Source: Paralichthys olivaceus (taxonomy: Eukaryota; Chordata; Actinopteri; Pleuronectiformes; Paralichthyidae). From it: DNA of 64,000 nt. Each line of letters begins with the position of its first letter. The first letter of the stretch is position 1. The position numbers were made by a program, and so were the translations under genes. Under the pieces are notes generated by a model. It had not been told where the DNA came from and did no database searches. It saw only the letters and a program-made list of their open reading frames with translations. Shown here piece after piece: positions 10,388 through 36,650 of the stretch. The stretch lies in NCBI RefSeq assembly GCF_024713975.1, contig NC_091108.1, positions 2,476,501 to 2,540,500 of the forward strand. The letters run 5' to 3'.

Positions 10388-11926
10388 TCAGTGAGCTGTT
10401 TTCTGGTGGGACTTGAGGCTGGAGCGCTGGGTGAAGCACTTCCCACACAGCGAGCACTCGTACGGCTTCTCGCCGCTGTGCACCACCGCGTGTCGTATGA
10501 GGTTGCACTGCTTGGTGAAGCTGCGGCCGCACTGCGCGCAGCTGAACGGCTTCTCCCCCGTGTGACTCCTCAGGTGCTCCTTGAGCTGACTGAACCTCAT
10601 GAAGCTCTTGTCGCAGTACGTGCAGCTGAACCTCTTCTCGCCGACGCCGGACCTCCAGGGCGTCCTCATCCTCCTCGCCAGGCCGAAGCTGCCGCGGCCG
10701 CTCTGCACGCAGAGGGAGGAGGCGGCCGGGTTTGGGTTCGGATCCTCGTCTCGGCTCCTCAGCGAGGGAGGAGCGAGGTCTCTGCACTGATGCTGCGACA
10801 GTTGAGGGACGGAGCTCTGATCCGTGGAGTTCGTCTGAGCGTTGAGTCCGTCTTCTGCTTGTGGTCGTCGACTTCCAAATGTTCTGGCTCGTCTTTTCCC
10901 TCGGACCAGGACAGAGTGAGCTTTCCCCGCTGAGTGAGTCCTGGGTACCACCTCCTCTGATGGAGTGAACACAGCGGGGATCTGCTTTACCTGCTGCCCC
11001 TCGTAGGAGAAGCTGGGATCGGCTGCGTCCCTGCACAGACCGGACAACCACAGCTGATCGTGACCGTCCACCGCCACAGACGCGAGGCCCGACTCGAGCT
11101 GCGGCGCGTCGTCGTCTGGTTCCTCCTCCCTCTCGTGTTTCACCACGAGCTCCGAGCCGCTCCGGTTTGTGACGATCGGCTGCTGCCCTAGTGGCAAAGA
11201 GTCGTGTCCGGCCGTCGGGGACACAAGAGGTTCTGGTTCTGCCGGGTCCTCGGCCGAGTGGTAACGATCCACGAAGCCGTCGGTCTGCTGAGGCGGCGAG
11301 GATTTGAAACACGGGGATGGTTCTGCTGCGGATACTGAAAAGGAAGCACACGTGAGATCAGATACGAGAGCACATCAATCACAAAGCCTTTATTGGTCCT
11401 CACAGGGAAATGAGTCCGTTGGGAAAGAGGAAGTAGATGACGGGTCAACGTCCGCTGATTGAAAAACCTGGGAACCTTCATACGTGACAGTGGTTTGTGT
11501 TCTCGCTCACTCAGTTTGTCGTCTGTGTCGTTCTTCCACTCGTCCTCCTCCGCACACTCCTCTTTTATCTGCACGTGTTCGGCTTCATCAGAAACCTCCA
11601 GGTCTGCACACTGCAACACAAGCAGCAACACTGACTGTGAGGAGGAACACACGTCATCTATCAGTCTATCTATCAGTCTATCTATCTATCTATCAGTCTA
11701 TCTATCTATCTATCAGTCTATCTATCTATCAGTCTATCTATCTATCTATCTATCAGTCTATCTATCTATCTATGAATCGATCCTGTGTTCGTACCTGTTG
11801 CTGATCTGAGGTCTCAGCTTCTGTCTGTGTGTCCCAGTCGATGATCTGAGTTTGTTTACTGAGAATCACTTTGACCAGAGGAGAACACCGGTCTGCTCCT
11901 GGAGGAGACACACACACACACACACA

Positions 11927-12002
<76 letters not shown>

Positions 12003-12739
12003 ATGTTTCAGAAAGTAAACACACCAAGTTGATGAAGAGGGCTCTCCTCCTCCTACACCTCTCCTCCTGCTGCTCACCTCCCCTCCTCCTCCTCACCTCC
12101 CCTCCAGTCCCTCAGCCTGCTCCTCCTCACCTCTCCTCACCTCTCCTCACCTCTCCTCTCCCCTCCTCCTCACCTCTCCTCCGGGCCCTCAGTCTGCTCC
12201 TCCTCAGCTCTCCTCCTCCTCACCTCTCCTCTCCCCTCCTCCTCACCTCTCCTCCGGGCCCTCAGCCTGCTCCTCCTCCTCCTCCTCACCCCTCCTCACC
12301 TCTCCTCTCCCCTCCTCCTCACCTCTCCTCCGGGCCCTCAGCCTGCTCCTCCTCACCCCTCCTCCTCCTCCTCACCTCACCTCACCTCTCCTCTCTCCTC
12401 CTCCTCACCTCTCCTCTCCCCTCCTCCTCACCTCTCCTCCGGGCCCTCAGCCTGCTCCTCCTCACCCCTCCTCCTCCTCCTCCTCACCCCTCCTCACCTC
12501 ACCTCTCCTCTCCCCTCCTCCTCACCTCTCCTCCGGGCCCTCAGCCTGCTCCTCCTCAGCTCGGCGTCCATCAGCTCACACTTGTTCTTCAGGAGCTCGA
12601 TGTCCCTCCTGCTCCGGTTCACCTCCAGCCGCAGCACCGCGCAGCTGTCCTCCACTCGCCGGTTGATCTCCTCCACCGCCGCCTTGGCCAGCACCTCCAT
12701 GACGGAGAGGAGCTGGTTCTGGAAGCCGCAGCTCTCCAT
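10388..12739 (-). CDS. C2H2 zinc-finger protein A (three fingers, helical N-terminal module)
   Basis: Predicted nuclear DNA-binding protein. Coding exons read on the minus strand: 12739-12526, 11898-11795, 11610-11484, 11334-10388. They close in frame to 463 aa. The ATG at 12739 was chosen because MESCGFQNQLLSV aligns with the starts of genes B-D; an in-frame ATG at 12931 would add 64 residues. Exon 1 encodes the N-terminal module (AKAAVEEINRRVED, then a heptad-like LRLEVNRSRRDIELLK). The middle exons are acidic, with psi-K-x-E motifs VQIKEE and VVKHE. Residues about 384-463 form three canonical C2H2 fingers (FSCTYCDKSF, FSCAQCGRSF, YECSLCGKCF) with TGEKP/SGEKP linkers. The second intron-proximal donor is GTATGA, weaker than consensus. 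The DNA target is unknown. Its exon 1 donor lies inside a CTC-rich minisatellite. Confidence 0.85.
11656..11773. repeat. TCTA/TCTG tetranucleotide microsatellite
   Basis: About 118 bp of tandem 'tcta' interrupted at regular intervals by 'tcag'. It lies in the intron between coding exons 2 and 3 of zinc-finger gene A. Confidence 0.95.
11909..12000. repeat. CA microsatellite with periodic GA interruptions
   Basis: About 92 bp of (CA)n broken twice by 'gaca'. On the minus strand it is a (TG)n run ending about 10 bp before the acceptor of coding exon 2 of zinc-finger gene A. Confidence 0.95.
12100..12560. repeat. CTC-rich minisatellite carrying copies of an exon/intron junction
   Basis: Imperfect tandem repeat rich in 'ctcctc'. 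The core 'ccgggccctcag' begins at 12181, 12254, 12330, 12439 and 12533, a spacing of 73-109 bp. The 12533 copy is the true 3' end of coding exon 1 of zinc-finger gene A (minus strand). The others are intronic duplicates that include the GTGAGG donor. Confidence 0.88.
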
Positions 12740-13030
12740 CTTCTCCTCCAGATACGAGACCAACGCGTGACTCCTCCAGGGGGAGGACGTGGACAGGTCC
12801 CGGTCACAGGAGCGTCCGGAGGCGGACGTTGTGTTGATGTTTTCCGCGGATGGCACCAAGAGAGGACCGCTCGATGGATTCACCGTTACGCTTCGCGCGG
12901 GTGGAGTCTCTCTCCCCCTTCGGCTGTTCACACCAACGACATCTCAACGTCTCGTCGACGCGAATAAAACAAACGTCTCAAAGTCTCCGCGCTTTTTAAA
13001 AACACACTGTTCCTCGTTCCGCTTTCATTT

Positions 13031-13056
13031 CCGCCATCTTGGCACGTACCGGAAGT
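13031..13056 (-). promoter_or_regulatory. YY1-like and ETS-like motifs upstream of zinc-finger gene A
   Basis: ccgccatcttgg (13031-13042) matches the YY1 core, and accggaagt (13048-13056) matches the ETS/GABP core. They lie about 300 bp upstream of the start codon in a GC-richer patch, as expected for a TATA-less housekeeping-type promoter. Binding is inferred only. Confidence 0.45.
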
Positions 13057-13059
13057 TAA

Positions 13060-15531
13060 AACCAGGTTACCATAGCAGCTGCCCATGTCGTCACTGGTGA
13101 TGTTACCGTAAATATGAAACTACACGCGCACTGTCAGAATACACGCCCTGAAATAAACTGAAACTCAATGTTTATTTAAATTATAAACCAGAGGAACTGA
13201 TTCCTGCCTCTTTTTATTTATTTCATTATTATTTATTGTTGATTTCATGAAAACTTTCCTTATTGTTATAATTACTATGATGTTTTCTTTGAATCATACT
13301 TCCTCATGTACCATTGATAAAGTGCATTTTATGATATAACTTTATTTAAATAGCACTTATCTCATGTTACAAAGTCAAAAATGAATCAATAAAAATGAAA
13401 GGTATTTTATTCAGTTGATATAATATTATATTTTGCATTTTTTTATGATTTATCGGTGACGCAATTTTAAATAAATATTTATTTAAAAAAAAAAAACATT
13501 TCATCATACATGTAAGAAAGTGGCACCAGTTTCTCAAAGATCAGATGACGGGGAAATTAGGTCAGCACAAGAAACAGCATAATAAGACACAGGAAGTCAC
13601 AAAGCCGTGCAGGAAAGTAAACAAGAGAGAGATGCAACACACATGGTGTTTGAATATATTTGTAATGAAGTTTTTTATGCTCGTTAACTGTAGTTATTTC
13701 TAGCGTATTTCTGCTTGTGTACAAAATACTGCAAACTCTAGAGAGCTGGGAAATCCCATTTTAACAGGAACCTAATCAGATGATGACTGAGACCAGAGTG
13801 AGAGACTCTCAGTCAGACGAATACTCAGAATGATTCGCCCATAATTTACTAAACAGAATAAGAAGAACGTCATCACTCTAATACTATCCTGTAGCATTTT
13901 GTCATTATTACACACAATCCAGCTGTTTACAGATTTCCAGATGTTCACTGCCGCTGAACGAAAGCCACGTTTTTCCAGCTCTCCCTGGGGACCCTGAGAT
14001 GTTCCCAGGCCAGATGGAATATGTCGTCCCTCCAGTGAGTTCTGGGTCTACCCCAGTGATAAAGTCAAATATGTAATTAGCTGTGCTGAGTACTTTCAGC
14101 CCTTTTTTTGTCTTTCTTCATGGACCTTGATTTGAACCCTGTAGTTCTTTGCAGTACATTCTACTGATTGAGGCAGTACGAGTTTATATTTCTGTTGTGT
14201 CGGGATTTTGTGTGGATACCATTAACACCACAAGGGTGGAAGTAAATTTGTGTTATTTACCATAGTGATTGTTTGCTTTGGTGCCTTCTGATTCTTAGTT
14301 GTACTTTCTGTGAGGTACCGTGTTTTAGTTTGTGGTACTTTTGCAGTACTCACTGAGGCTCTATGTTGTTACCATCCAGTGATCAGTATTAGTATACGTA
14401 ACGTTCATGTACATCAGACTCAGTCAAAGAGAAGGAGTCAAACACATTAGTCTTTTGTCCGTGGCTGTATTGTCCTTAATGAACTTTCACTGTCCATGTT
14501 GTCAGGGTGAATAATACACATGGAGCTCGACCTGCACTGAGACAAACACATAAAGGGAAATAGATGCACTGGTTTCCCTTCTCAATCAGCAGAGGCGGAG
14601 ACACTGTGAGCCTCATGCAGAGAGAAAGCGCAAGAGAAGGAGACACACTCAGGAAGTTAACAGAGGAAGTTTAGTGGTTTCTTGCGTCATCATTTTATGC
14701 TGCCTCTTGTGCCGATGCAGAGTGAAGGTAGGAACACGAGTATTTACTCCTTAACTTGGTCATTTCTCTCAACACTGGAACTCTTCCCTGGAGGTGGACA
14801 GGTAGGGAGGGATGCTGGACTGAAGGAGGAGAGTGGCAGGTGTCAGGACAGATGGAGGGGATGGGGAGAGAGTTTGAGCGTCTGCGTGAGTCTGTATGTT
14901 CAGGCTCGACTTCCGCTGCACTGAGCCAGGGGCCTCAATGGCCGTGACATGCGTGTGAGGAGAGCAGTCCGGGTCCGTAATGAACTCGGGCCTCAGGCGG
15001 GGGACTGAGATTGGAGATTTAGGTGCGTCCACCCGTCCAGAGACACATTATGGTGTGACGAGAGTGAAACAGTCAGAGTCTCACTTCACTGAATAGGAGA
15101 AGTTAAGAGACAAGGGTGTGGCCTTTTATTCGAACATAAATTGAGTGCATTGGGGGAAGTGGAGAGTAAACGTACGTGCACAGAGGATTCTGTGCTACTC
15201 GTTGTTTGATCCTAGAAGAGACTTTGATTTGGACCCAAAAAGGAACGTTTGTTATTTCTCATGTTGCAGAGAGGACGACAAATGAAAGTATGTCCTAACA
15301 CATCAGCTCCAACGCGACGCAGCCGACAGAGGAAGCGGCCGACAACATGCACTGAAGTGAAGGAAGCAGCAGCAGCTCGGTCGGATCTCTGAGATGTGCA
15401 CCACCTCCACTCTGTCTCTGCCACATTAAGCTGAGTTGGTGGAGTCCACGCAGAGAGTGACGGTGTGACGGTGACAGGCTGAGCAGCTCGGGTGGGTCTG
15501 AATGTGAGGGGAACACCGCAGACAGGAAGAG
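13060..15531. other. Intergenic region between divergent zinc-finger gene A and arhgap30
   Basis: No exon supported. The stretch is AT-rich up to about 14500, then more mixed up to the arhgap30 start. It should hold the arhgap30 promoter and 5' UTR, but I could not place a TATA box or transcription start. Confidence 0.5.
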
Positions 15532-16258
15532 ATGCGGAGAGTTCGGAGAAGAGGAGGCAACAAAGAGAAGGTGTTTGGATGTGATCTGCTCGAGCACCTG
15601 AACGCCTCATGTCAAGAGAGTGAGTAAACTGCTGCCACACAAACAAGCTGTTGGAATAAACCACGTTATTTTCTATTCCACACACTCACTGTGTGTCTAA
15701 CTATACAACTGTGTGTTCTAGACATGCTGCATATCCTGATTTACCTTGTTGGTGTGGTTCACGTCTTACAGTTAGTAAAATAATCCTTCAAATTAAGACT
15801 CAGCGTTTTAAAAGTAAATGTGAAACAATTTCTTTTTGTCGAGACTCCGATCACACATCATCAACCACAACATGTCCACTCAACAAAGTGGGTTTTTCAT
15901 TCAGTTCAATTTAAATCCTCTCACAAGTAAAAATAATAATCGAAACAAAAGGACATAAACCACTTCGTCTCTAATGCTAACGTACATGGAAGTGGCGTTC
16001 AACAAAAGAGAAATGCAGGAACGAAGCATGTTTGGGTTTCAAGTCTACAATGAATGAAAGATTTTAACATCAGAGTGTTTGTGTTCATGGTCGTTGTTTC
16101 TAAATGATTCAGGTTTTATTCAGATGATTGACATGAGTCATCTGACACAGTTCCTCAGGTCTTACGATGCTGCAGCGAGTTCGTCGAGCATCATGGCATC
16201 GTGGATGGAATCTACAGGTTGTCTGGGGTGTCGTCCAACATCCAGAAACTCAGGCAAG

Positions 16259-16319
<61 letters not shown>

Positions 16320-17346
16320 CCTCTCTTTGAACCTTTTGTCTGAAAATGTCAGCACTTCCTCTTCGTCCACCACCAGGGGGGAGTTTGAGAGTGACGGGAA
16401 TCCAGACCTGAACAAGGATGTGTATCTGCAGGACATCCACTGCATCAGCTCTCTGTGCAAAGCTTATTTCAGAGAGCTGCCGAACCCTCTGCTCACGTAC
16501 CAGCTGTACGACAAGTTTGCTGTGAGTAGCTCGAACTCACACATTCATAGACCAGCACGGACATGTTGTTTACAACAGCTTCATCACCAAGGTGTTCTGT
16601 GTTACAGGAGGCTGTTGCCATCCAGCTGGAGGAGGAGAGGCTGGTGAAGATCAGAGATGTGCTGAAAGAACTGCCGTCACCACATTACAGGTACGGTGCT
16701 GCACACTGACGGCCTCTTTACTGATGGAGATGAACCAACCTGCCGAGTATTTCTGTGCACTGAGCTCGAGGTGAACGTATGACTCACCAAAGTGAACACA
16801 GTTCCCAGGTGACCAGAAGCAAACTCTCGTGTAACTGTGAATAATAGTTAACGTGGTTTGTATCTCAGTGTCGTGTTCGCAGCTCGTTGCTCCGCCTCAG
16901 AGCAGGATGCAGGTTCACGTCTTCATTTTCTTTCTCAGGACTCTGGAGTTCCTGATGCGTCACCTCGTCAAAATGGCTTCTTATTCCTCAGAGACCAACA
17001 TGCACTCCAGGAACCTCGCCATCGTCTGGGCCCCCAATCTGCTCAGGTGCGCTGATATCAGTGGCATTTATAGATATATCAGTGTTTGTTGTACACACAT
17101 TAGATCTTAATTCCTTTCAGCATTTCTTCCCTCACATTTCCCAGTGTAATCAGTTATAAGCCACTTATCAATCAATCAGCGATCAATGGATCAATCTGTG
17201 TTTTAAGGTCAAAGGACATTGAGGCGACCGGGTTTAACGGCACGGCAGCCTTCATGGAGGTCAGGGTTCAATCCATCGTCGTGGAGTTCATCCTCACACA
17301 CGTCCCTCAGCTGTTTCCTGACCAAGGTCAGAAGACACACACACAC

Positions 17347-17384
<38 letters not shown>

Positions 17385-20300
17385 CCTCTGCCTCATCTCT
17401 TTCTTCTGCTGTATTCAGGTGGATCGGATGAGAGAAGAAAGTCCCTCCCCTCTCCATCAACAGCGATGGATGACCCGTTACCCAAGTCTGTTCCCTCTCG
17501 GCCTCTCGCCAGCTTTGGGAACATCAGTCCAGGGGACGGCCCACTACCCATCAGACCCTACCATGCAATCATAGAGGGCACAGACAAGTGAGGACAATAT
17601 TTAGCAGTAGCATCGTTACCGATCCCTCGTTGGTGAAATTACAGTTCGACAGCAAAAAAAGTAGTGCAAGAAGAAATGTGCTGAGAATAAAATAAGGAAA
17701 GAAAGAGAGTCCAAAATAAATACGATAAAAACTGAATAATAATAGCGATGCATGATACAGATTATTCTTATTCTATATATGTGCAATACGTCAGTGAAAT
17801 ACAGATCAAATATAAACCACCTGCCTGTGAATGTCTGTGTTCACCTCAGGAGGAAAGGATCTCTGAAGGGCAGGAAGTGGATGTCCATATTCAACATCGG
17901 AGGACGATTCCAGGACACACGGAGACGACACAAACACTCAAGTAAAGGTAGAAGACCTGCTAAAGAAAATATAATTCCTGGTTTCTGTCTTTATTTCTAT
18001 AAATAGCTTTGTTTTTGTTTTTTATGTTAATGTTGATCCCCTTCTATTTGTTCCATGTTTCATAGAATTTGTTTGTGTTCCAGAGAAAGACAGATCTGCT
18101 CTGAGACCAGCACGAAGCATGGACTCCCTCAGTATCCAGTCATACGCAAATGAAGGTGCTGCTCTTCTCACAGTCATCGCGATGAATTCTGTGATTCCAG
18201 ATAAATAAAATACAATAAATGGAAAAAGCAAAGATTTAATTCTACAAACTTGAAAGAAAAACGCCACCAATCAGTTTTTTTTCTTGAAGGATCTGTTCAT
18301 CAAAAATACTAAAAATAAAAAAGACAGAAAGATTCACTTAGGTTTCATGTTAATTCACCAAAACCTTCCAGTGTTATTTCTGTCTATATCATTTAAAAGA
18401 AGGGATTTCTCATATATCATTTGTAGCCTGATTTATACAACACTTCTTAAAATCTTAAAAATTATACTTCTAATGCATATTGACAGTTTTTCTAATTTGT
18501 CGATTCCTGCTCAGAAAATATCAGCAAATGAACTCATTACAAACAGATGATGCCTCATTTATGTTTGTGTGTTAGAAATAAGAAGAAGTTTGTGACCTGG
18601 ATCTTATGTGTTATTATTATTTTAATTATTATCTGTCTCTTATATTCCAGGTTCCAAACATCCTCCCCAAACCCCTCCCTCCACCAACATGTCTCCCCTC
18701 GTCACCTCCTCCCCACAGCTGGGCTCGGAGGCCGCGGCGCCTCCTGGTGGAATGGGTGGCAGTGAATATGCTGTGACATACCGCAGAGGAACAGGGGTAA
18801 TGAGCGGAGGGACCCAGGGCACCTACACCGCTCTCGACCCGGAGGGTTTAGGGGTCATTGGCAGTGACCCAGTCCAGTCCAGATCCCCGGGCCTCTCGGC
18901 TAAAGCAGGACGAAGAGCGGCCATGCACATCACAGGGCCCACCCTGGTTACTGTGCCGCTGCACATCACCTCCAACCTGGCACTGGGGGTGCTGCAAGGG
19001 GGCGGGAGCAACCGGGTCATCCATCGTGGCAGGGATAAGGATGGAGGGGACAGGGTGGAAGGAAAGGAGGGAGAAGGAAAAGTGGAGAGGAAGGAAAGAA
19101 AGAGGATGGAAATGAAGGTGGATGGAGGTAGGAAGGTTAGAGAGGAGGAGACAGACAGGGTTGTGGACGTGGAGGTGAAAACAGTGGTGGCAGGAGGCGT
19201 TGGTGAGGAGGAGGGTGACGGAGTAAAGGTGGAGAAGGAGGAGGAGGAGGAGGAGGAGGAGGAGAGAAGCGTTGGTAGAAGGAAGTCGGAGCTGGTGACG
19301 GGAGGTGGAAGTGTGTCCAGAGAGGAACGAGTCAAAAGCCTCAACTCCAACACAGATGATGACGATGCAACGAGAGACGACCAACAAGACGACTACGTGG
19401 GTGAGTCCAACTATTTCATGAACCTGCTTCTCATTCAGTATCAGAGCTGAACCTTTCAGTATGCAGACTACTTTTCATGTTTGATCTTTACCTCTCAGTT
19501 AATGTGGCAATGAACTGGTTTCTGTTAACCCTGCATTCTTTCAATTTGAGTTTATTGTGTTGCAAGTGCAGCGTAGTCTATAGTTACCTCATCTGTGATC
19601 GTAGCCCGTGTTTCACTCACAGATATGAAAAGTGTGGAACCGGCTGATCCTCATCCAGAGGAGAGTGAGCCCGAAGATGTGTATGTGTTTCACGAGTCCG
19701 ACATCCTCAACTCGACCGAAGCGGAGGGAGACGACCAGGAGCTGTTCGGCTACGTTCAAGATAACTTTGAATTCCTGGACCACATGGACAGCTGCGTCAT
19801 GGACCACATGGACAGCAGCAACTCACATCAGGTTTGTGTTGTTTGCACAGATGAGGTCGTTTGAAGGTAGTGAGTTTGCAGAAGCTGACAGTTTTATTTT
19901 CCCTTTTGAGCTTGTTTTTGTTAATTTGAAGAAAACTCTCTCTTCGTCTCTCAGGTGAACGAGTTCTCCGTCGAGCCTCCCGGTCACTCAGACGACGAGT
20001 ATGAAGTCATGGCGCAAGCTGAGCCTGCCCAGAATCCTGCAGGGCAACACATGCACCTGCAGCCGGCCCCTGAGTTTAAACCACACAGGCCGCTCAGCCT
20101 CGACCTGCACAGCCGACAAACTAAATCCCTCAGCCTGCCTTATATGACCTCACCTGTCCACGGGCCGGACGAGTATTGCTCAGAAGACGAGGATGAGGGC
20201 GACCCCAGTGACGATGAGGATGATTACAGCAGTGACGAGGATGGTAGCATGTTCATTAAAAGCCTCCCCGCTGATTTCCTTTTAAACAATCTGACCAGGT

Positions 20301-22031
20301 TTGACCTGGACACCGATAACGTAAGTAGACTTCCTGTTGAACAGTCGAAAAACTTTGAGGCGCTGCACTCTAAAGAAACGACAACCGGAGAACAGGAGCG
20401 AGAAGAAGTGGTGGATGAAGAGGATGGAGGAGGACTGGAGGGAAAACAGATGATGAAGAGCGAAGAGGAAGATCATCAACAAGAAGATCGACCAGAAAAA
20501 CAAAGGTAAGAAAGTAAAATCTAATATTACAAATCTCTAAATCTTTACCTGAAAATCAGTTTCTCTTCTTCTTCACGCTTCACTTATCTGTTAACTGTGT
20601 GTTAACGTCTATTTGCAGATCGGAGGCAGAGGAAGATCCCGACATCCCGGAGGATGTTCACAGTGACAAAGAAAAGTCTTGTGCTTCCGAACTGTCAACA
20701 TCCAGCTGTGAGGAGATGGACAAATTCATCACTATCAAGGCTGCGGAGGAGGAGGAGGAGGAGGAGGAGGAGGAGGAGGAGGAGGAGGAGGAAGAGGAAG
20801 GGGTTGATAATCTTCACACTGATTATCCACTATGTTGCACAGATTCTTGTTCCACACAGGAGACTGCTGATGATCTGTTAGAGCAGACCGGAGGACATCC
20901 TGGACCCTGTGATGAGGAGGAGACAAAAGAAAAACACACTGACGATGCAGAGGACAGGAGGAGAGACACAGAGACAACATGTCAAGAAATGGGTCCGGAG
21001 AAAAAACAAGGGGGCGAGAACCTGTTGGAAGACTCCATTGAAGAAGATGGAGGGGGAACGGCTGACGATGAAGATGAAGAGGAGGATAGTGTCGTTTGTA
21101 GCAGTGAAGTTTGGGAGGAACTTGAGGATGTTGTATGTGAAGTGATCGAGGAAAGTGAGCAGGTTCAGAGGGAGAAAGAGAGAGCTAGAGAGCAGGAGGA
21201 GCAGGAGGAGCAGAATGTGAAGGGATCAGGAGAAAAAAGAGAGGAAGAGAAGGAAGGAGGGACAAACAAGACAGAAGATAGAATAGAGGAGACGGCTGAA
21301 CAGAAGCTCACAGGGATGCACCGAGAGTCCGAGGAGAAAGAGACGAGTAAACTCCAAGTGAAGAACGCGGCCGTTGAAGAAGCACAGCATCACGACAGAG
21401 AGGACGAGGCCGCCAGAGAGACAGGAAACAGGAAAAACAACGAGGAGACAGCTGATGAGCAACGAAGAACAACGACCAACGCCAGGTTTGATCCTAAAAT
21501 ACTCATGTGTGAGGAGAGCGACAGAAGCCACGGAGGAGGAGGAGTTGGCAGGAAGCTGGTTATCTCCAAACACCCAAAGGTTTACCAGGTGAGAGCTGTG
21601 CCGGTCGTGCCCCCGAAGCCTCAGCACTGCAAACTCACCGCCATGACCCTCCGGCAGCAGCATCAGCTGCATCACTATCAGCAGCAGCATCATCATCACC
21701 ATCAGCAGATGCAGCAGCAGGAGTATCATCATCACCATCAGCAGCAGCAGCAGCAGCAGCCGCAGCAGGAGCATCACCATCAGCAGCAGCAGCAGGAGCA
21801 GCAGCAGGAGCATCACCATCAGCAGCAGCAGCAGCAGCAGGAGTATCATCATCACCATCAGCAGCAGGAGCAGCTGCAGGAGCATCATCATCACCATCAG
21901 CAGCAGCAGCAGCAGCAGGAGCAGGAGCAGCAGCAGCACCAGCATCATCAACATCATCAACATCATCACCATCACCATCAGCAGCAGCAGCAGCAGCAGC
22001 AGCAGGAGCAGCAGCAGCAGCAGCAGGAGCC

Positions 22032-22062
<31 letters not shown>

Positions 22063-22347
22063 CAGCAGGAGCAGCAGCAGCAGCAGAGGGTATGGAGAGG
22101 CGCGGAAGGAGGAGGAGAAAACACACCGAGAGTCCAGACGGAGCAGGAGAGAGTCAGTGCAGGGGAACAGGGGAAGGACGGAGGGAGGAGGGAGAAGGAG
22201 AGGAGGAGGGACGGGGAGGACACCAGCAGAAACAGTCCCCTCAGCATGTGTTTCGATGAGGCGGTTGCCATAGCAACCATGAGGCGAGAGAAAGAGAGGG
22301 GGAGCGACAAGGAGAGGCCGAGGGACCGGGGAGGTGAAGTGCTCTGA
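15532..22347 (+). CDS. arhgap30: Rho GTPase-activating protein 30, complete
   Basis: CdGAP/ARHGAP30-32 family; its GAP domain accelerates GTP hydrolysis on Rho-type GTPases. Thirteen coding exons: 15532-15619, 16151-16253, 16377-16521, 16608-16690, 16939-17046, 17208-17326, 17419-17587, 17850-17947, 18084-18155, 18651-19400, 19623-19831, 19955-20505, 20619-22347. The frames close exactly to 1407 aa (human is about 1100). The RhoGAP domain spans about residues 16-215, with the arginine finger in GIYRLSG (R52), KAYFRELP (K92, R96) and the Asn of APNLL. ARHGAP30-specific blocks follow: RPYHAIIE, KGSLKGRKWMSIFNIG, RPARSMDSLS, TVPLHITS, VNEFSVEPP, QVRAVPVVPPKPQ (a likely SH3 ligand) and FDEAVAIA. 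The tail adds a poly-Glu run near residue 875 and a Gln/His tract at about 1176-1321. Intron 2 uses a GC donor. The GTAAGT after base 20320 inside exon 12 would truncate the protein if used. Confidence 0.94.
16260..16316. repeat. GT microsatellite next to a GC splice donor
   Basis: About 28 GT units, starting only six bases after the GC donor of arhgap30 intron 2 (base 16254). Confidence 0.95.
17336..17382. repeat. CA microsatellite
   Basis: Fills much of the short (92 bp) arhgap30 intron between 17326 and 17419. Confidence 0.95.
20743..20802 (+). repeat. Coding GGA/GAG microsatellite (poly-Glu)
   Basis: In-frame 'gag' repeats in arhgap30 exon 13 encode about 20 consecutive glutamates. A smaller poly-Glu run of the same kind is encoded at 19238-19262 in exon 10. 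Confidence 0.95.
21650..22085 (+). repeat. Coding CAG/CAT repeat (Gln/His tract)
   Basis: About 145 codons made almost only of cag (Gln), cat/cac (His) and gag (Glu). They are arranged as imperfect repeats of a His cluster followed by a Gln run and a Glu. The tract is fully in frame within arhgap30 exon 13. Confidence 0.95.
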
Positions 22348-23401: not shown

Positions 23402-26117
23402 ATGGCGTTCCCCTCCGCCTTCGGTTCGCAGGTCGCCGCCATCATGGACGTGCTGGCGAAGGCTGCGGTCGCCGAGATATCGAAGCTGGTGGAGGACGGG
23501 ACCGCGGTGCTGCACCTGGAGATGTGTCGGAGGGACGCGGAGATCCAGGAGCTGAAGACGAGTCTGAAGCTGATGGAGGTGGAACTGTGCAAAGCTCGAG
23601 AAGCTGCAGAGACCCGGGACACGGAGGAGGAGCAGCAGGAGGAGCAGCAGGAGCAGACAGCCGGGACCCAGGTCCCCTCCATAGGTGAGAGGCTCCCTCA
23701 CACCAAACTTCATTTAAAATCTCCCAGATTAAGAACTCGTTCGCTTATAAAAAAACGTTTCTTACGCAGTAGAACAAAATGAAATATTCTCAACGAGTTT
23801 GTATCGTCTCCTCTTACATTCGGCTTTAAAACATTGATTAATTTTAGTTCTGTCACCAGACTTCCTGTAAAATCTCTCAGATTAAAAACTCAACTCGATT
23901 ATAATCAACGTTTCTTATGTGGTAGAACACAAGTAAAGGTTCCTCACAAATGTATATTGTCTCTTCTCACATTCGGCCTTCAAACATTCATTGTTGTTCT
24001 TGTTCTGTTATATGACGTTCTTGGATCATAATTTGAAATAAGCAATAATCAGAATAGTTAGTTATGTTGTGTAATTTTCACAGAGTTTCCATCCAATCAC
24101 TATTTTCACTAATGATTAATGTTCCAGTTACACAAAGCTGCAGTTTGAGTCGTTCAGTCGTAACGTTTTCAGAACTGGCTTTGAGATGCTGGTGATGGTG
24201 TTGACGGTGTGAGTGGGCTCCAGATTACATGAGACCTGCTGATTCCATACTCGCGTGAATTAAAGCCAGAGACCATCTGGCAGAGATCTTTCAGTAATTC
24301 CAGTATCGAGGCTAAAACCAGACGGGACAAAGCCGTCTGGAACGACAGGCGAGCTCTGTCTTTTCTTTTAAACCTCTGTTGAAAGACACTTTTCATCCGT
24401 CTGTTCTGTCAACAGTTTGACTGAGGTTTGACTTTGACTCTATATGTGGATCCTGTGTTTTCTTGGTCATGTCCATGGACAGACATCATCAGTGACATGT
24501 TCTGCCCCACGGAAGATGATTTAATGGTTCATGTGGAGAGAAAGTCACCATCACTGGACATGTTATACGTCAGGATGCTTCTGAATAAAAAGAAAACAGA
24601 AATACAACCAAATATATTGAATTCAAATCAAGAAAATAAAATTTCATCATCAAGAAAATGATTTTGTATTATTTATTTTGTGAAATCAAAGTTTTTATTT
24701 AGGCCAGTTTAATCGGTCGAACTGATAAATTGGTTGGACTCTAGATTTAACCTCACTTGTTATTCTTTTTTCTTTTTTCTTTTTTTACATTATCAAGTAA
24801 GTTTTGTTTCATGTCTTTCAACAGCACTTTGACAACTTTAAGAAAATGACTAACTTAGAAACTTTTGACAAGTTTTCAGTAGATCAACTGACGTGACCTC
24901 ATTCACCGTAAAAGCAAATATGAAGGTAGAACATTTGGTGAAGTGGACATAACGATAATGTGTTAAGGAATTAAACAAAATGGCTCATCGGGTTCTGTCA
25001 GTCATGGACACCTTCCAGTGAACAGGCTGAATAAATACCCGTAGGGTTGTACTGTTCTTGCGGATAATTGTGTTCTTGCTTTGTTGACTTGCATTTGACG
25101 AGGTAACATTCAAATTGTGTTTTATTTGCAGATGAAAGAGAGGATGAGCAAACACGTTTAGGGTTTCTGGAACCAAAGGCTGCTGATTCACTCTGCAGAC
25201 ATCGACATGGGAACCAAGACAGTGATGACATGAGACCAGCGGTGAAACACGAGCCAGCCGGTGAGCTTGTGATCCAGGAAACAACAGACAACACTGCGAC
25301 AGCAGCGACTAACATTTGCTTTGAGGGGAGCGAGCGAAGTGACTCAATCTGGCCTCCTGCTGCTTGCGGCATGTTTGAGAAAAGCTCTGTTGCGCTGCAG
25401 CAGCACATGCAGATGTTCCCCTCTCACGCTGAGCAATTTTCTGCTCACCGAAATTCAGAAAGTTCCTTTAACTCTCCAACCGCAACACAGGAAATTGTCG
25501 ATAATTCGACAAGCGTGCCGATAAAAGTAGAAACAGAGATTCAACCTGTGTGCTCAGGAGGTACCACTTCACAGTCTGTTAGCAATGAACCATTAAGACG
25601 TGTTTCACGCCCTTCAGGCATCGGGACCCAGTGTCTGCAGTCTCCTCCGCAACAGGTTGGGCGGTCACCCGCTGTTCCTCATGTGCAGAGGTCCGCTGCA
25701 GTCACAGAAGATCACATCCTCAGCAGAAACAACCTGAGGACAAAAAGACTCATGAACATGTGGAGATCAAATCAGAAACTCTTCATCTGCTCCGTGTGCA
25801 ACAAGGCTTTCCCCCGCATGTCTCAGCTGGAGGAGCACAAGGCCACTCATCAGCCCTTCAAACCTTTCAGGTGCCTCGAATGTGGGAAGTCTTTCACCCA
25901 GAAGACCCGGCTGAAGACGCACCAAAGCGTGCACACGGGAGAGAGGCCGTTCAGCTGCAAAATCTGCGGCAAGATGTTTTCGAGGCAGGACAACTGCACG
26001 AGACACGAGCGCTTCCACAGCGGCCTGAAGCCGTACAGCTGCGGGCAGTGTGGGAAAAGCTTCACGGTGCTGGGTAACCTCAAAATCCATCAGGAGATTC
26101 ACCTGCAAGGTAGATAG
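23402..26117 (+). CDS. C2H2 zinc-finger protein B (four fingers, helical N-terminal module)
   Basis: Predicted nuclear DNA-binding factor, paralogue of genes A, C and D. Two coding exons: 23402-23684 and 25132-26117, joined in phase 1 to 422 aa. The start MAFPSAFGSQVAAIM aligns with its paralogues. The exon 1 module continues VLAKAAVAEISKLVED, then LHLEMCRRDAEIQELK, and ends in a Glu/Gln-rich stretch. The single second exon carries an acidic/polar linker with psi-K-x-E motifs AVKHE and PIKVE. It then has four C2H2 fingers at about residues 312-422 (FICSVCNKAF, FRCLECGKSF, FSCKICGKMF, YSCGQCGKSF). The linker after finger 1 is HQPFKP rather than TGEKP, and finger 3 has Cys in place of the helix Leu (DNCTRH). 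The 1.4-kb intron shows no further exon. The DNA target is unknown. Confidence 0.88.
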
Positions 26118-28302: not shown

Positions 28303-28533
28303 ATGCTGAGCAGCGTCGCTCTGCGGGCTCAGGTCGCCTCCATCATCGAAGAACTGTCCAGAGCGGCCGCGGCGGAGATCTCGGAGCTGGTGGAGGACGG
28401 GATGGTTCTGCTGCGGCTGGAGATGTGTCAGCGGGACCAGGAGATCCAGAAGCTGAAGGGCAACATCCAGCTGCTGCACACCGAGCTCCGGGCGACCCGG
28501 GGCCCGGTGACCCGGAGACCTGAGGACGGTGAG

Positions 28534-28616
<83 letters not shown>

Positions 28617-31136
28617 CTCAGGACACATCTTCATTGCAATCAAGGTTTAAAAGACACATTTCATTGGGACATTAAGGACTTTAGGACTTTAGGACATTAG
28701 GACTTTAGGACATCAAGGACTTTAGGACATTAGGACTTTAGGACATTAAGGACTTTAGAACGTTAGGACTTTAGGACATCAATGACTTTAGGACATTAGG
28801 ACTTTAGGACATCAATGACTTTAGGACATTAGGACTTTAGGACATTAAGGACATTAAGGACATTAAGGACTTTAGGACATTAAGGACACTAGGACATTAG
28901 GACTTTAGGACATTAGGACTTTAGGACTTTAGGACATTAAGGACTTTAGGACTTTAGGACTGTATCTTTGTGTTTCCACAGGTGGTCAGAGCTCCGCTGG
29001 GGACGAGAGGATCTTTCGTGAAAATGTCCACGCTGACCGAGACGACAGCTGCGTGTCCAAACCTGAAGTCAAGGACAAACCTGACTCTATGGAGCCGGGA
29101 GGTGAAGAGGGCAGAGGTCACGCCGAGCAGCTGGGGGAAGAGTTGACTCTGTACGAGGGGAACAGCGGACGGTGGAGATCCAAAGCCGAGAGGGAGACAG
29201 AACGTGACACCTCAGGTTATTTAAACGTGCGGCCCAACTCCCTGCCATGTCTCCCGGAATCCTCCCTGGACGCTGGACTGGCCTTCGGTCAGTATCGTGG
29301 CGCTTACAACACGGCACGGAGGAGGACGGCGAGGAGGCTGAAGTTTAAGATGGGCTTCATCTGCCCGTACTGCGGCAAATGTTTTGAGCGTTCCGGGCAC
29401 CTGGAGAGACACAAGAGGATTCACACCGGGGAGAAACCGTATCGCTGCGAGGTCTGCGGGCGACGCTTCAATCAGAAATGCAGCCTGAAGGAGCACATGA
29501 AGATTCACAGAAGATGTAAGTTTGACAAAGACAAACTTTACTTTCTAGAAAGTTGTGCTGCATTAAATGTACATTATACGTTATAATTGACGACAGGTAT
29601 TCCGCCCACAGCAGTGGAGGCCCGGGTGGTCGAGGAGAACCAGATTCCTGAGGTGAATCCATGTGCCGATCCTCATCTCCCAGAGGAAAAGATCCGCACG
29701 AGCGCTGACGATGTTCCGCCCGAGGACGAGGACGTTCTCCCTCCACCTCTACGAGTCAAATCTGAGCCGGCAGAGGAGGAAATAACACAACCGCTGTTTC
29801 AGAGAGGGGGTGAGCCGCCAAGGGAAGGAGGGGACGACCTCGGAGGGAATTTCACAGCGTTTGAGAGAGACAGCCAGCGGTGGAGGTCGAGACTACAAGG
29901 ACACAACGACACAGAGATGAGCGGGATGGAATATCTCAGCAGCTCGGCACAGAATATGACGTCCTACCCCGGGATCGCTCAGTTACTCCCGGGACCGGTC
30001 GAAGCTTCTTGTAGCTCCTTCCCGTTTCCAGGGAAACCATACGGGGAGCTGAAAAACAGCACGATCTCCCAAACGCCCTACGCATCGTCAGACGTGCTTC
30101 TCGCGTCCGGCGAAGCGGCCTCGCCCGGTGTGTCGGAGGCAGCGCTGAATCACCAGCTGCAGAGGAGGAACGCGTCTTTCCAGGTGATCAAACCGAAGAA
30201 AAGCTTCGCCTGCTCGTACTGCGGCAAGATCTTTAAGCGCTCCGGTCACCTACAGACACATTTACGAATTCATACCGGGGAGAAACCGTACGGCTGCCAC
30301 GTCTGTGGGAGGTGCTTCACTCAAAAAAGTAGCCTGAAGGTCCACATGAAGACGCACAGAAATGGTAAGAGACAAAAGTTATTCCTGTAGAAAAGCACGT
30401 GAAGTTACTTTGCTCATTTTAAATCTGTTGTGTTTTTCCTGAAGGGGAGAACCCAGATTTGCTGGAGGCTCATCAGCTGATGTTTACGATGCCTGACAAC
30501 CACTCGCTGGAGAACGCGCCGGAGCCGAAGCCCGAACTGGTGGCGTTTGAGGAGCAGTTAGCGGGCAGGGAGGCGCTGGGCGAACACATGGTGATGGTGA
30601 AGGTGGAGTCGAACGAGGAGGATTTTCAGGCTCTGAGTCAGGTGAGGCCCGATTGTGGCACAGGAGCGCTGGACCACAGTGAGCTGTGGACCTCTGGGAC
30701 GGAGAAGACCTGCGAAGCCATGGTACAAACCGTCTGCGTACTTTCACGTGACATCAAGTATGAACTCGGCCTCGCCGATGAGCAGCAGGGATACACGAGT
30801 GCGTCACCGATCAAGGATATTCCTTTTCTGAATGACAAAGAAAATGAAGACATGGTGCGCGGTGACTACGCAGCGATGGGAATTCACTCCAGGAGCTCGG
30901 ATGTGACTCTGGCGCCTGAGCTGCAGGTTCGAGAGCCGAACGATTACGGCTCAGCGAGCGACAGGACTGGGGAGGGAACCGGGTTTGAATTAGATATGAC
31001 GTCGCTAGGCAACCTGGAGGACGGCTGTGGCAGCGATGGCGCCAGACAAAACTGCTTTATATGCTCGAGCTGCGGGCAGAGCTTTGATAGTTTCATCTTG
31101 TTTCAGCAGCACCGGTGTAAAAACATCAGTGATTAA
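28303..31136 (+). CDS. C2H2 zinc-finger protein C with duplicated finger exons
   Basis: Paralogue of genes A, B and D. Coding exons: 28303-28528, 28982-29515, 29597-30364, 30445-31136. All introns are phase 1 and the model gives 739 aa. Exon 1 is the N-terminal module ([44 protein letters not shown]). Exons 2 and 3 are copies of one unit: acidic linker, an RWRS motif, then two C2H2 fingers ([15 protein letters not shown] / [25 protein letters not shown] / [10 protein letters not shown]). Exon 4 has psi-K-x-E motifs MVKVE and DIKYE and ends in one degenerate finger ([10 protein letters not shown]) that lacks the final His. Exon 3 also has RVKSE. Reading through the exon 2 or exon 3 donor reaches a stop within 25 codons, so shorter two- or four-finger isoforms are possible. 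It could also be transcribed as alternative forms using only some of the units. Confidence 0.85.
28537..28612. repeat. AC microsatellite
   Basis: About 38 AC units starting eight bases after the exon 1 donor of zinc-finger gene C. Confidence 0.95.
28658..28962. repeat. 'ttaggac' minisatellite
   Basis: About 300 bp of variants of an 8-9 base unit (ttaggacat, ttaggactt, ttaaggac) in tandem. They occupy most of intron 1 of gene C. Confidence 0.95.
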
Positions 31137-33396
31137 AAAAACGTTCACGGACGAGTTCAGGGTCGGACATAAGAAAAAAAGAAAAGAGGAATAATCGAAA
31201 TGCAGAGAACAAAGTTGAACCAAATAGAAGGAAGATATTTACTTTTGCAAAGGAGGTCATTGTTTCATTTCTGATTGTTCGTTAGCGGTATTACGTAAAA
31301 ACTACTCAGTTGACTTATTTGAAACTTGGTGGGAAAATGCGATTTTTGGCCAAGGAAGGAATTTTGAACTGGATTTGATTAAAGGAGCAGCTCCGAGATT
31401 TTGTTTTTCATTTTAACGTTGCAAGATTTACACTTTTTTTTAAAAAACATGGATTTTATCGAAAAAAACTTTTAAAAAATTTTTTAGAGTTCGATTTCGT
31501 TCAACTTTACTCTCGACATTTGAACTTACGTGCATTGTTAACAAAACCTCCCTCTTCTAATTTTTTCTTACGCCCGGACCTAATACTCCAAATCTGAAGA
31601 CCCAATTATTTTTGTATTTGCTGCTGAGAAGTGCAGTCGTTTCTTCTTCTGCAGTAAAGACACAAAACGTTTCCTGCTACTTTGACCGTCTCCACCACGC
31701 ATTAAAAATAATCAGTGTTGACAGGAGCAGTGAACTCAGTCATCTTTCTGGGTTCTTGCTGTTTCATAGAACACTTTGATGATGTTTATTACTGAACACT
31801 GTTCAGGTGAAGAACCGTCGACCTCATGCAGAACCAGTGGTTTTGTTTTTTTCTGTTATTTGTTTGGGATATTTCTTTTAAATCTGTAAAAATAATGAGA
31901 GGATAATTGAAGCTGATTTTTTTTACTTTTTCTTAAATAATTGATAAAGAAGTCAAGGACATGGCTGAATAAAAAATGTTTACTTTGGGTTGAGTGAAAA
32001 ATGAAAAACAAAATCCTTCTTTGCGGAACACTATCTAGTATTTTGTGGCTGAATTAATACAAATCTAATTATAATCACTGATCTACTTTATAATTAGATT
32101 TTTTTTTTTTTTAGTTTGTTACGTGTTTTGAAAAACAAACTACAGTTTTCTGTTTTATAAAATATGTGTGAGGACATGTGTCCGAAATATTCACGGGTAC
32201 TGAATCAGCAATATTTTTAAAAATCAAGCTGAACAAATGCTGCTCTCAAGACCAAAATACTGTATCTGTGCCTTCATACATACAGGGAGTAAAACCCCTG
32301 CAGTGTTATTGACTTTCTGTTGTTACCTTTCACAGTCATTTTTTTTTTAACCTTCATTTAATGTATATTAATTCTTGTTTTCTTTGATTTGCTGGACACA
32401 AGATCTGGTAACTTGATTCCACGGGTATCGCACAATGTTTTCAAATAAATTCAAAACCAACTTCATGGACTTGTTGAGTCTGGCTCTGCTTACATCGGCT
32501 CCATCGAGGATGATTCCGTCGGCATCTGTCCGTTGCTCTGTTGTCGTCGAGATTCCACAAACCGCTTTCAATGAAATGTCGTGGAAGGGTGGAGGCGGGG
32601 CACGACCACAACATTTAATTTTGTGGCTTCTCTCACATCTTCTAGTTTCCAATTGATGGAAAAGGAATAAAACCTCATGCAGACCTTTAAAATACAGTTT
32701 CAACCAACCACTGAAATACCAACTGGTTCGTTAGCAGCTGACGATTTGAATCAAATATTCATTATTTTCATTAGAGATCAACACACTCAAAAATGACTTT
32801 AGGTGTCATCTTCAGAAATCTTGTGGTGTGTATTAAGTTTCACCTATGACAAATACTTCTATAATAAATAAGTATATATGTAATATATGCAAACATCACA
32901 ATACAACTGAGAACAGAACATAAGTACACAAAAAGTATGCAAAAAACAGAACATGTAAGTATGCAACATATTCTGTACACAACACATAGTACACAGTACT
33001 ACATAGTATGCAGTACTACATAGTATGCAGTCATAACTCAGCAATCAACAGATTTGATCCCTTTTTAAAACTCTCGATCAGGTCAGTAAATTAAATCACC
33101 TGCACTTGAACATCTCTCCTCGATTTTATGTAATCTCCCTGCGCGTCTCCTCCTGTACTTACGGTAGATCCCTCCGCCACACGGAAGAGAGCTTCGCTTC
33201 AGCCTCAAACACAGATGTCAGTTTTTTATTTTTTCTAGTGCGTCGCTTCTCTTCGCAGTTTAAACCAAGTCTCAACGCGGAAGCAGCTTTTGTTTGTGAT
33301 TTTTTTTTTTTTTACTGCACCCCCACCTCCCTCACCTCCCTCCCTCCCTCCTCCTCCTCCTCCTCCTCCCTCCTTGCACACATTTCCTGTTTATGA
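31137..33396. other. Zinc-finger gene C 3' UTR and spacer before gene D
   Basis: No coding exon. AATAAA at 31968-31973 may end gene C (3' UTR about 840 bp). The sequence is strongly AT-rich with several T and A runs, then has a CCT-rich run at 33325-33374 just before gene D. Confidence 0.5.
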
Positions 33397-34403
33397 ATGA
33401 ACATGGCGACGTGCATCTCCTTCCAGACGCAGCTGTCCTCTGTAATGGAGGAGCTGCTGAAGGCGGCGGTGGCGGACATCTCCAAACTGGTCGATGACAA
33501 ATGCGCGTTCCTGCACGTGGAGATCTCCAGGAAGCAGAGCGAGATCGAGATGCTGAAGAGGAAGCTGCAGACGATGGAGAAGAAGAACACGCAGCTGCAG
33601 CGCGGCTTCGGTGAGAGGCTCCAGTGACTGTGATCGAACCCCCCCCCCCCAATCCATTCATGTTGTGTTGTTGTTGTTGTTGTTGTGCAACGAGACAACA
33701 ACAACAACAACAACACGTCCCATCATGGTGGAGAGCAGCTGATGTTGCGTTCACGTGCTCTGTGAGGATTGTTGCATTTCCTCTTTTTGAACAACATCAG
33801 ATTTCACTTTCTTACATTTCGTTTTTTTTTCTCCTCTCAGAAAACTACATGGACCGAGGAACTGACGTCGCCTCCAACTGTCGTCATCCCTCAGGAGACA
33901 TGAAGGTTCGTAACTTCCAAGATTCAGTTCACGCCGATAATATTACGAAGCTGCAGCTGAATCAAGGTAAAGCAGGAAACCGCCTCAGGGGCCCCCCAGA
34001 CCTCAGGGGCCCCCCAGACCTCAGGGGCCCGACACCCTCAGGGGCCCGACACCCTCAGGTTCAGTGGTTGAGCCTTTCCAGTCCTGTTGACCGCTCATAG
34101 CACTTAACAGGTTATTTCCATTCACACACACATTCATACTGAGCATCTGTGGGTCCGTGAGGAGCAATTTGATGTCTTGACTCATCGGCAGACCGGGATC
34201 GAACCGCCGACCCTCTGGTTAGAGCCGCCCCCATTGGTTATTGGTTCACGTTGACACACAGACAGATTAACGTTATGATCCACATCAGTAGGAATTTAGC
34301 TTTGGCTTCTTTAAAACATCAAAGTACATACATGTGAATAGATAGATAGATAATTAGAAATATATAGAAAGACAGATAATTGGATAGATAAATAGAAAGA
34401 CAT

Positions 34404-34437
<34 letters not shown>

Positions 34438-36650
34438 GGATAGACAGATAGATATATAAATAGATAGATGGATAAATATATAAATAGAAAGATGGATAGA
34501 TATATAAATAGACAGAGATAGATTTGATTTGACTGTTTATGGTTGTAGACGACTCAGGATCAGCAGATTGGGTCAAAGTATGTTCTTCTTTATTAGATGG
34601 ACATAAAGTGGACACGTCCTCAGACGCAGGATTTAAAACAGCTCAGCAAAGAAAACTAATGTTTTTTTTGCTCCCTGAAGATTTGTTGTTGTCATCCTGC
34701 CAGAAATGTGATCGTCAGAGACCCTGGTGTTGTAAAATACAGTCCAGCTCTCATTTGTCTGTGGGTCCTGACTCATCAACCGACATCTGGGTCGAGGATC
34801 TGCAAACCTGAATTCCAGTAACTTTCCCGTCAACAAAGCACAGAGAGAGAAGTAGGACCGGTGCTTAAATCACTTTTGCTGCGGGGCCTCTGGTCAGGTT
34901 AATCTGACCTCGTTCTGAATCCTGGTTTTTTTTTTTTTTTAAACCTTCTGGAATTTCCCTGGAACCTGAGAGAAGCCATCAGGTCTGACACACTTTGTAA
35001 TGCGCTCCTTGTTTTTATATTAACACTGGATCTGAAGACTCTTTCGCCCCTTTTTCCACCAGGGAAGAGTTCAGGGCCTAATCTGGTACCAGATCTGCGT
35101 TTCCACGACCGAAGAAACTGGCTCTCGCGAGTTAAACCAGCTCCGAAGCAGCAGTAGCACTTTGGTGGAACAGGGTTTTCTTTGTGATGTTAGTTTTGGT
35201 CCCTTGAAGAGGAGAATCCACAGAGAAGGGTCAGGGTGTTCTAGTGTCTTTCACCTCACCGACCCTCGTTAGTCTCCTTTCCAGCAACACGATATAAAGT
35301 TGTTGACTAGCCGGTGAACGTAGTGGAGAATTAAACTGCTGACGAGACAGATATTTATTGTACTGTACCACACATGCATGTTTAATCCAACATCTTGATT
35401 TAGTTTCCAGAGATGGACGATGCCGCTGTTTCCTTCACGATTAAAGAAGAGAGTCCAGATGAGCCGCTGTGGATCAGTGACACCGCTGGACCCATCGGTG
35501 AGATTTTATTCATTTGAAAAAAAAAAAAGTATTTTCCTTCTTTTCGTTCAAGATATCAAATGAATTCCCTCCACCCCTGCTTCCTGCAGCTGGTTCTGTG
35601 CAGTACCCTAACCCAGGTATCGTGGTGGAGAGCCAGCAGCTGGAAGAGGGCCGTCACTTATCCCATCCAGAGGTCTCCAGGCTAAAAACGTCAGAGTTCA
35701 GTGACTTGTACAACTCTGGTCATCACGCGGGACAGATCAGCGGCCTCCACTTCACCGTCAAGACGGAGAAGGAGGAGGAGCAATCTGGATTCAGTCAGGA
35801 CGGATGTCAGCACGGCGCCGGGAAGCAGAATCAACTCGCCGCTGACTTTTCCATCGACGAACGAGATAATCAGCTCTGGTCGTCCATAATCGAAGGTAAC
35901 GACATCGACGCCGGTTTTCCTGACTTTTCAAGTATGGTGGAGGAGTACTCCAACACGTTCCCGGAGCACTCGGATGCTAATGTGGTTTCGAACGCCAGCA
36001 AGTCGACCGGTGTCCAGCAGTCGTCCTCTCAGAGGCCGTGCAACGGGATCTACAGCGGTGAGTACCAGAAGGACGTCCCGCAGTCGTCCGGTTTTCAGAA
36101 CAGAGCTCAGGGCGCGCTCCCGCAGGGGGAGAGGCCGAAGGAGCAAATGTACTCGCAGAGAAACGCGTCGCATGTTTCACACCTGAGGCAGCCCGATGAG
36201 CACCCAGAGAGGGACGCCACATCTGGGGACAGACCGGCCGTGACTCACTCCCACAACACGTTCACACCCAGCAGCTACCACAACCCCCACAAGCCTTTTT
36301 CTGCCGCGGGGCGGGGCTACGTTTGCTTGCAGTGCGGCAAGACGTTCGGCCGCCTGCACCAGTTCAAGCTGCACCAGCAGAGCCACAAGAGGAAGCGGGC
36401 GTTCTGGTGCACGGTGTGCGGGAAGAGCTTCCAGTGCTCGTCCCACCTCAGCATACACCACCGGACGCACACGGGCGAGAAGCCGTACGGTTGCGGGCAG
36501 TGCGGGAAGAGGTTCACGCAGCAGAGCAGCCTGAGGGTCCACCAGCGCACTCACAGCGGCGAGCGGCCCTACAGCTGCTCGCAGTGCGGGAAGACCTTCA
36601 TCCTGATGCACCATTTGAAACGGCACAGAATTATTCACACGTACAGCTGA
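33397..36650 (+). CDS. C2H2 zinc-finger protein D (four fingers, helical N-terminal module)
   Basis: Paralogue of genes A-C. Coding exons: 33397-33610, 33841-33966, 35411-35497, 35590-36650, all split in phase 1, giving 495 aa. The ATG at 33403 (MATCISFQTQL) is an equally plausible start. The exon 1 module reads FQTQLSSVMEELLKAAVADI, then KLVDDKCAFLHVEISR and EIEMLKRKLQ. Exons 2 and 3 are short. Exon 3 carries FTIKEESPDE and exon 4 carries FTVKTEKEEE, both psi-K-x-E motifs. An NQLWSSIIEG motif resembles DQLWLSGL of gene A. Four fingers fill residues 386-495 (YVCLQCGKTF, FWCTVCGKSF, YGCGQCGKRF, YSCSQCGKTF). The linker after finger 1 is basic (HKRKRA) instead of TGEKP. AATAAA at 36900-36905 is a likely poly(A) signal. 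Confidence 0.87.
33665..33716. repeat. Perfect 22-bp TTG/CAA inverted repeat
   Basis: The left arm (33665-33686) is six ttg units with a gtg start. The right arm (33695-33716) is its exact reverse complement, and the loop is 8 bases. It lies 54 bp inside intron 1 of zinc-finger gene D, in the direction of transcription. Confidence 0.93.
33985..34062. repeat. GC-rich 'cctcaggggcccc' short tandem repeat
   Basis: About five copies of a 16-19 base unit (cctcaggggcc plus a spacer), just inside intron 2 of gene D. Confidence 0.85.
34111..34233. mobile_element. Fragment of a teleost interspersed element
   Basis: Contains the phrase 'gggatcgaaccgccgaccct' followed by 'ctggtt', close to the 'cttgaaccggccaccct' block at about 57730. 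This phrase recurs in fish interspersed repeats and resembles a degraded tRNA B box. The class is uncertain. Confidence 0.5.
34336..34520. repeat. GATA tetranucleotide microsatellite
   Basis: About 185 bp of (GATA)n with ATAA and GACA interruptions, in intron 2 of zinc-finger gene D. Confidence 0.95.

Follow-up and report, generated by a model that had tools for sequence, protein, structure and literature searches.

The DNA analysed was a stretch of 64,000 nt (hereafter the window) of Paralichthys olivaceus (GCF_024713975.1, NC_091108.1:2,476,501-2,540,500, forward strand). Four C2H2 zinc-finger genes were located in it, A on the minus strand and B, C and D on the plus strand. Each starts with an N-terminal segment of ca. 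60 residues (the module), as the initial annotation had it; the four segments were matched by BLASTP (pairwise E 3e-21 to 1e-13) and by four-way alignment (14 invariant columns), and no further copy was found in the 64-kb window beyond A–D. The features are as follows (fingers by Pfam; 48 is a position of the module):

12526..12739, minus strand: gene A exon 1, ATG and helical module, Ile at position 48; donor GTGAGG after 12526, phase 1
11500..11603, minus strand: gene A probable exon 2, acidic linker; phase-1 acceptor before 11603; 11500 is a stand-in for the 3' end
10388..11374, minus strand: gene A finger ORF, 3 C2H2 fingers
23402..23684, plus strand: gene B exon 1, helical module, Ile at position 48; donor GTGAGA, phase 1
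25132..26117, plus strand: gene B finger exon, 4 C2H2 fingers; phase-1 acceptor
28303..28528, plus strand: gene C exon 1, helical module, Ile at position 48; donor GTGAGC, phase 1
28982..29515, plus strand: gene C exon 2, 2 C2H2 fingers; donor GTAAGT, phase 1
29597..30364, plus strand: gene C exon 3, 2 C2H2 fingers; phase 1 at both ends
30445..31136, plus strand: gene C exon 4, one weak finger (below the Pfam cut-off) and stop
33397..33610, plus strand: gene D exon 1, module, Ile at position 48; ATGs at 33397 and 33403; donor GTGAGA, phase 1
35590..36650, plus strand: gene D finger exon, 4 C2H2 fingers; phase-1 acceptor
Modules proper: A 12739-12527 (minus), B 23402-23683 (plus), C 28303-28527 (plus), D 33397-33609 (plus)

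The module had been proposed to form a separate first coding exon with a phase 1 end in all four genes, and this was borne out: GT donors stand directly after 12526 (A), 23684 (B), 28528 (C) and 33610 (D), all in phase 1; phase-1 acceptors, read by eye, are at 11603 (A), 25132 (B), 28982 (C) and 35590 (D); an in-frame stop lies 5 (B), 6 (C) and 0 (D) codons upstream of the start; the frame of gene A is open for 68 codons upstream of the start, with no ATG within. Since in-frame stops are near the start in B, C and D and no upstream ATG is present in A, the module exon was taken as the first coding exon. The long motif drawn up earlier for the segment fits A, B and D, while C has E at a position given as K/R; its element E-x3-R was in error for A and D, which read E-x2-R.

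In gene C (28982-31136) the fingers are split 2+2+1 across three successive exons with all junctions in phase 1; genes A, B and D, by contrast, have a single finger ORF each. A 76-bp minisatellite (ca. 6.5 copies, 12047-12533) reaches into the 3' end of exon 1 in gene A, and that end recurs in it together with GTGAGG, so that several decoy or alternative donors are possible in this gene. The description as a cluster of four is right for the window, but the true extent is larger: a fifth member lies at C16:2460772, 15.5 kb ahead of the window start, and a RhoGAP-domain gene is interposed between A and B. A later ORF there, perhaps of the same RhoGAP gene, has long glutamine/histidine and glutamate runs; Pfam gave no match for this ORF at E ≤ 0.01. 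These features are at window 16132-16644 and 20518-22344.

Types of predicted N-terminal helix in the genome

Single modules were used to search the whole genome from which the window comes (588 Mb in 25 contigs). With D as query, 29 matches fell at E ≤ 10, of which 20 also passed E ≤ 1e-3; B yielded 21 and L013, a member from C8, yielded 26, mostly at the same places as D. A profile iterated on the fetched loci collected 28 module stretches at 27 loci (type I; domain E < 1e-9, the E-values serving for grouping only, since members feed the profile). The observation of a common front module in A–D is confirmed and is broader than first noted. Similar N-termini are presumably to be found in other teleost proteins.

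An ORF with finger motifs follows on the same strand within 25 kb in 27 of the 28 stretches (26 of the 27 loci), only ca. 1.1 kb of downstream sequence being covered for the 28th (L016:1141); the module-to-finger gaps reach 12 kb, and at long gaps the fingers could be those of a neighbour gene. Fifteen of 20 type I modules lie within 15 kb of one of 150 scored finger matches (expected, 0.05). The module is retained ahead of finger ORFs far beyond chance. The nearest finger ORF carries 2–7 finger motifs in 24 of 27 cases. Downstream of the module, the top-scoring donor is a phase-1 site at 20 of 27 (a duplicate and a second copy excluded from the count) and not at the other 7, gene A among them; in gene A the top-scoring donor is a phase-2 site in a repeat, while the first good site there has phase 1.

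In the synonymous test pN < pS was obtained for 229 of 276 module pairs, but pS was high. Purifying selection on the modules is not clean: the closest pair, L012/L017 (C16:880207-885204), has pN 0.20 and pS 0.21, and the helix may there be changing without constraint or under selection. In the tree of 24 modules, 4 of 21 inner branches were well supported.

Another N-terminal helix (type II) starts finger genes on C4 and C19 that are among the strongest C2H2 matches. It gave 47 genome matches at E ≤ 1 and 36 at E ≤ 1e-3; for 20 of the 36, one of the 150 scored finger matches is no more than 15 kb away (expected, 0.09). The types were compared through alignment A2, with 24 type I modules (L021, both L025 copies and L024 excluded), and alignment A3, with 22 type II and bridging modules. 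HHalign of type I against type II gave Prob 95.3 and E 2.2e-8, spanning type I residues 15–57; the profile score was 41.1 for a set of 21 type II rows that omits bridging L043 and L026. Control maxima were 16.1 (100 free column shuffles), 12.7 (reversed alignment), and 13.5 and 22.6 (300 shuffles, 150 + 150, keeping heptad or hendecad phase). Rotations of the type II alignment were discarded as a control, since segments stay whole in them (score 41.2 vs the real 41.1). A common register, read by eye, comprises L18, A21-A22, E25-I26, V/F30, E31 and E40-I41, and a sequence of a third type, L043, matches type II at E 0.0016, its match to type I being weak (E 0.028). That only the first half is common to both types is not borne out, the profile match covering both halves (15–57). 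This match, beyond the shuffled controls, places types I and II in one superfamily, with type II as a distant relative of the type I module. Retention of the module ahead of fingers, as first noted, is seen at nearly all loci; the fish zinc-finger subfamily proposed on that ground was drawn too narrowly, the module being one branch of a larger set of helices.

Comparison with known domains

The initial annotation could not assign the module to KRAB, SCAN, BTB or ZAD, and no match to any of these was listed by Pfam. For the A–D modules no family was found at cut-off and no KRAB match at E ≤ 10; for the 24 type I members nothing better than E 5e-4 and no KRAB, SCAN, BTB or ZAD were found among the 25 of 54 matches listed; for the 22 type II members the same was found among all matches (17 of 17). 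Sequence searches of Pfam, NCBIfam and PDB gave weak matches only, mostly to coiled coils; such helices match many things weakly as coiled coils, and the Pfam and PDB matches are of that sort. Foldseek on the predicted helix gave 0 matches; a scan of viral contigs for relatives of the module gave 246 pattern matches, 0 of them confirmed. In a genome search for KRAB (PF01352), 0 of 7 candidates scored, and the controls were silent too, so that absence is not proven. Searches of the main text of open literature, by topic and by guessed peptide strings, listed no description of the module. It is nevertheless of a known kind, that of the N-terminal modules through which zinc-finger proteins pair or dock.

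SCAN, ZAD and BTB are dimerisation domains of C2H2 proteins and, like the putative pairing module here, separate N-terminal units; they are globular folds, whereas the module is a single predicted helix with no such Pfam match. bZIP (PF00170) resembles it in the heptad a/d core, in Asn or Ile/Val at one a position and in opposite g-e' charges; it differs in that the module precedes C2H2 fingers and scores below the cut-off (D, 14.9 bits vs 27.6, profile positions 23–46 of 64; A–C, no bZIP match).

KRAB is reported missing from ray-finned fishes in PMC11603059, which raises the question of what replaces it in their zinc-finger proteins. An actinopterygian 'KRAB-like' N-terminal domain is described in parts of PMC11603059 and PMC9101882, with co-precipitation consistent with TRIM33 binding, and is mentioned also in a passage of PMC10380595. 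KRAB and this KRAB-like domain share with the module the N-terminal place ahead of fingers; from KRAB the module differs in giving no match to its profile. The residue spacings of the eel KRAB-like domain, taken from a text description that holds no sequence, were met by type I in 4.46 of 6 features on average (shuffled, 3.84) and by type II in 3.36 of 6 (shuffled, 3.74); in the AEI register, 3–4 of 6 were reached by the 5 members listed. The published KRAB-like domain, compared by spacings only, might be this module, which is the main risk to novelty. FiNZ, as described in part of PMC10547256, likewise has its own exon upstream of the finger exon and no known-domain match; that description gives it 28 residues and makes it Glu-rich and cyprinid-only, the module being a helix of ca. 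60 residues.

Predicted helix, putative pairing and core position 48

AlphaFold2 predicted a single continuous helix for type I (residues 2–64, pLDDT 96) and a single helix for type II (residues 2–53, pLDDT 92); the models are of single chains, and a lone-helix prediction does not show pairing. The ca. 60 residues would thus fold as one continuous alpha helix, and a two-helix hairpin was discarded. Of the two forms suggested earlier, two amphipathic helices are not borne out by this model, while a coiled coil agrees with the parallel coiled-coil signature of the sequence.

By the usual coiled-coil rules a g-e' (i to i'+5) charge pattern marks a parallel, in-register pair. When the 7 heptad registers of the second half were scored, one was top for a/d hydrophobicity (0.72; next, 0.44), and the same register was top for g-e' attraction (1.62; next, 0.38; mean over 24 members), so that hydrophobic a/d and attractive g-e' positions, as looked for in a parallel dimeric coiled coil, coincide in one register as the mean of the 24 members. 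By the rules above, this coincidence points to a parallel dimer. L51 is present in 24 of 24 members; E/D at g47 in 22, K/R at e52 in 20, K/R at g54 in 20 and E/D at e59 in 21. The hydrophobic period is 3.45–3.5 in residues 30–60 and 3.8 in residues 6–33. Changes of helix length, read by eye, are +4, −4, −3 and −10 in type I (the last being −7 vs its sister) and −7 in 7 of 22 type II members, and would mostly suit a coiled coil; exceptions among type II, also read by eye, are L053 (−9) and L054 (+1), which are ill-fitting helix indels. The zipper is imperfect, d-position 44 being mostly polar (S 8, K 5, R 3 of 24), and g-e' attraction as a homodimer is 0 for B, C and two others of the 24 and −4 for one.

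On these data the module is probably the N-terminal pairing helix of a C2H2 zinc-finger family, the dimer being what the register argues for. Its second half (ca. 37–62) would join two molecules in parallel and in register, leucine-zipper-like, through a putative a/d core of 37, 41, the invariant Leu 51, 55, 58 and 62, with Asn or Ile/Val at 48, flanked by the conserved opposite charges g47-e52' and g54-e59'. Pairing would set two short finger arrays on DNA jointly; any effect on transcription is one that we infer. The module may be a common way for zinc-finger proteins to pair up, and prediction of finger specificity would then change, short arrays having to be read as pairs.

The first half (7–33) is better conserved than the second (mean entropy 1.58 vs 2.21), with L18, A21-A22, E25-I26 and V30 as conserved residues; it has more hydrophobic or Ala positions (13 of 27 vs 6 of 26) and a wider hydrophobic arc (260 vs 200 degrees). 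Because a two-chain zipper needs fewer hydrophobic positions than this half has, it would pack into a larger bundle or bind a partner. Most likely, the module pairs as a coiled coil and has a further conserved surface besides. The initial interpretation, in which a dimerisation or cofactor-docking module was suggested to define a fish zinc-finger subfamily, is partly supported, dimer and docking being putative.

That the helix serves chiefly to dock a corepressor such as TRIM33, as a fish counterpart of KRAB with secondary zipper features, is unlikely. The greater conservation of the first half speaks for docking, as does the KRAB-like domain with its TRIM33 co-precipitation in the parts of PMC11603059 and PMC9101882 cited above; it is opposed by the absence of a KRAB match for the 4 modules, the 24 members (among the 25 of 54 matches listed) and the 22 type II members, by the eel spacings, which do not single the module out, and by the I–II match, which covers both halves, so that the first half is not marked as the common part. 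The g-e' charge pattern, moreover, would be left unexplained.

An antiparallel or four-helix bundle, paired through the broad hydrophobic first half, was judged unlikely. The composition and arc of that half would suit it, and so would two members without the zipper half and with the first half doubled, but the i to i'+5 charge pattern indicates a parallel in-register pair and the choice of Asn or an aliphatic residue at an a position is typical of parallel zippers. The two members are L021 (C21:152295-152908) and L025 (C18:18859776-18860343), whose next open frame holds a second first-half copy, a strong match in L025 (E 5e-13) and a weak one in L021 (E 0.006); they precede ORFs with ca. 10 finger motifs, as against the 2–7 of most others. 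Convergence of types I and II as unrelated coiled coils, which would leave type I as a small family, is unlikely: likeness arises easily among coiled coils and single members show very weak matches to the profile of the other type (8.3 bits, E 0.78), but the score of 41 exceeds that of all 300 phase-keeping shuffles (≤22.6), both types have fingers downstream and the third-type sequence bridges them.

For the pairing helix, position 48 would set the choice of partner. Of the 24 type I members, 13 have Asn there, 7 Ile, 3 Val and 1 His; the five members found at C16:2.46-2.51 Mb, A–D included, all carry Ile-48, and the seven located at C8:26.7 Mb and C16:0.88 Mb all carry Asn-48. In type II the same position, read by eye, is Asn in 7 and Ile/Val in 14, with 1 gap. 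The tree calls for 2 changes between N and I/V; shuffling gave 7.8, and in none of 500 shuffles was the count so low, though near-copies alone could account for it. In bZIP proteins an N-N' contact at a positions strongly favours homodimers (passage of PMC5662769). It is conceivable, if rather doubtful, that one old helix of several types heads dozens of C2H2 genes as a zipper code, Asn-48 members pairing together and Ile/Val-48 members together, and that zipper-less members (2 seen) before arrays of ca. 10 fingers may need no partner. Under such within-class pairing, gene clusters would yield sets of zinc-finger dimers insulated from one another. The pattern of L021 and L025 fits a role of zippers in short arrays, though these are two cases only, with putative splicing. 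If the code is true, FiNZ and the KRAB-like domain would be joined, in a lineage without KRAB, by another large N-terminal system; the KRAB-replacement question would become testable on a module that dozens of genes of one genome carry, that has no Pfam family and whose pairing code can be read.

Tandem type II genes were located at C4:5384541-5403098 and C19:18930306-18965140. Five C4 exons are identical over 58 residues and six C19 exons are equal in score, which suggests very recent amplification or gene conversion.
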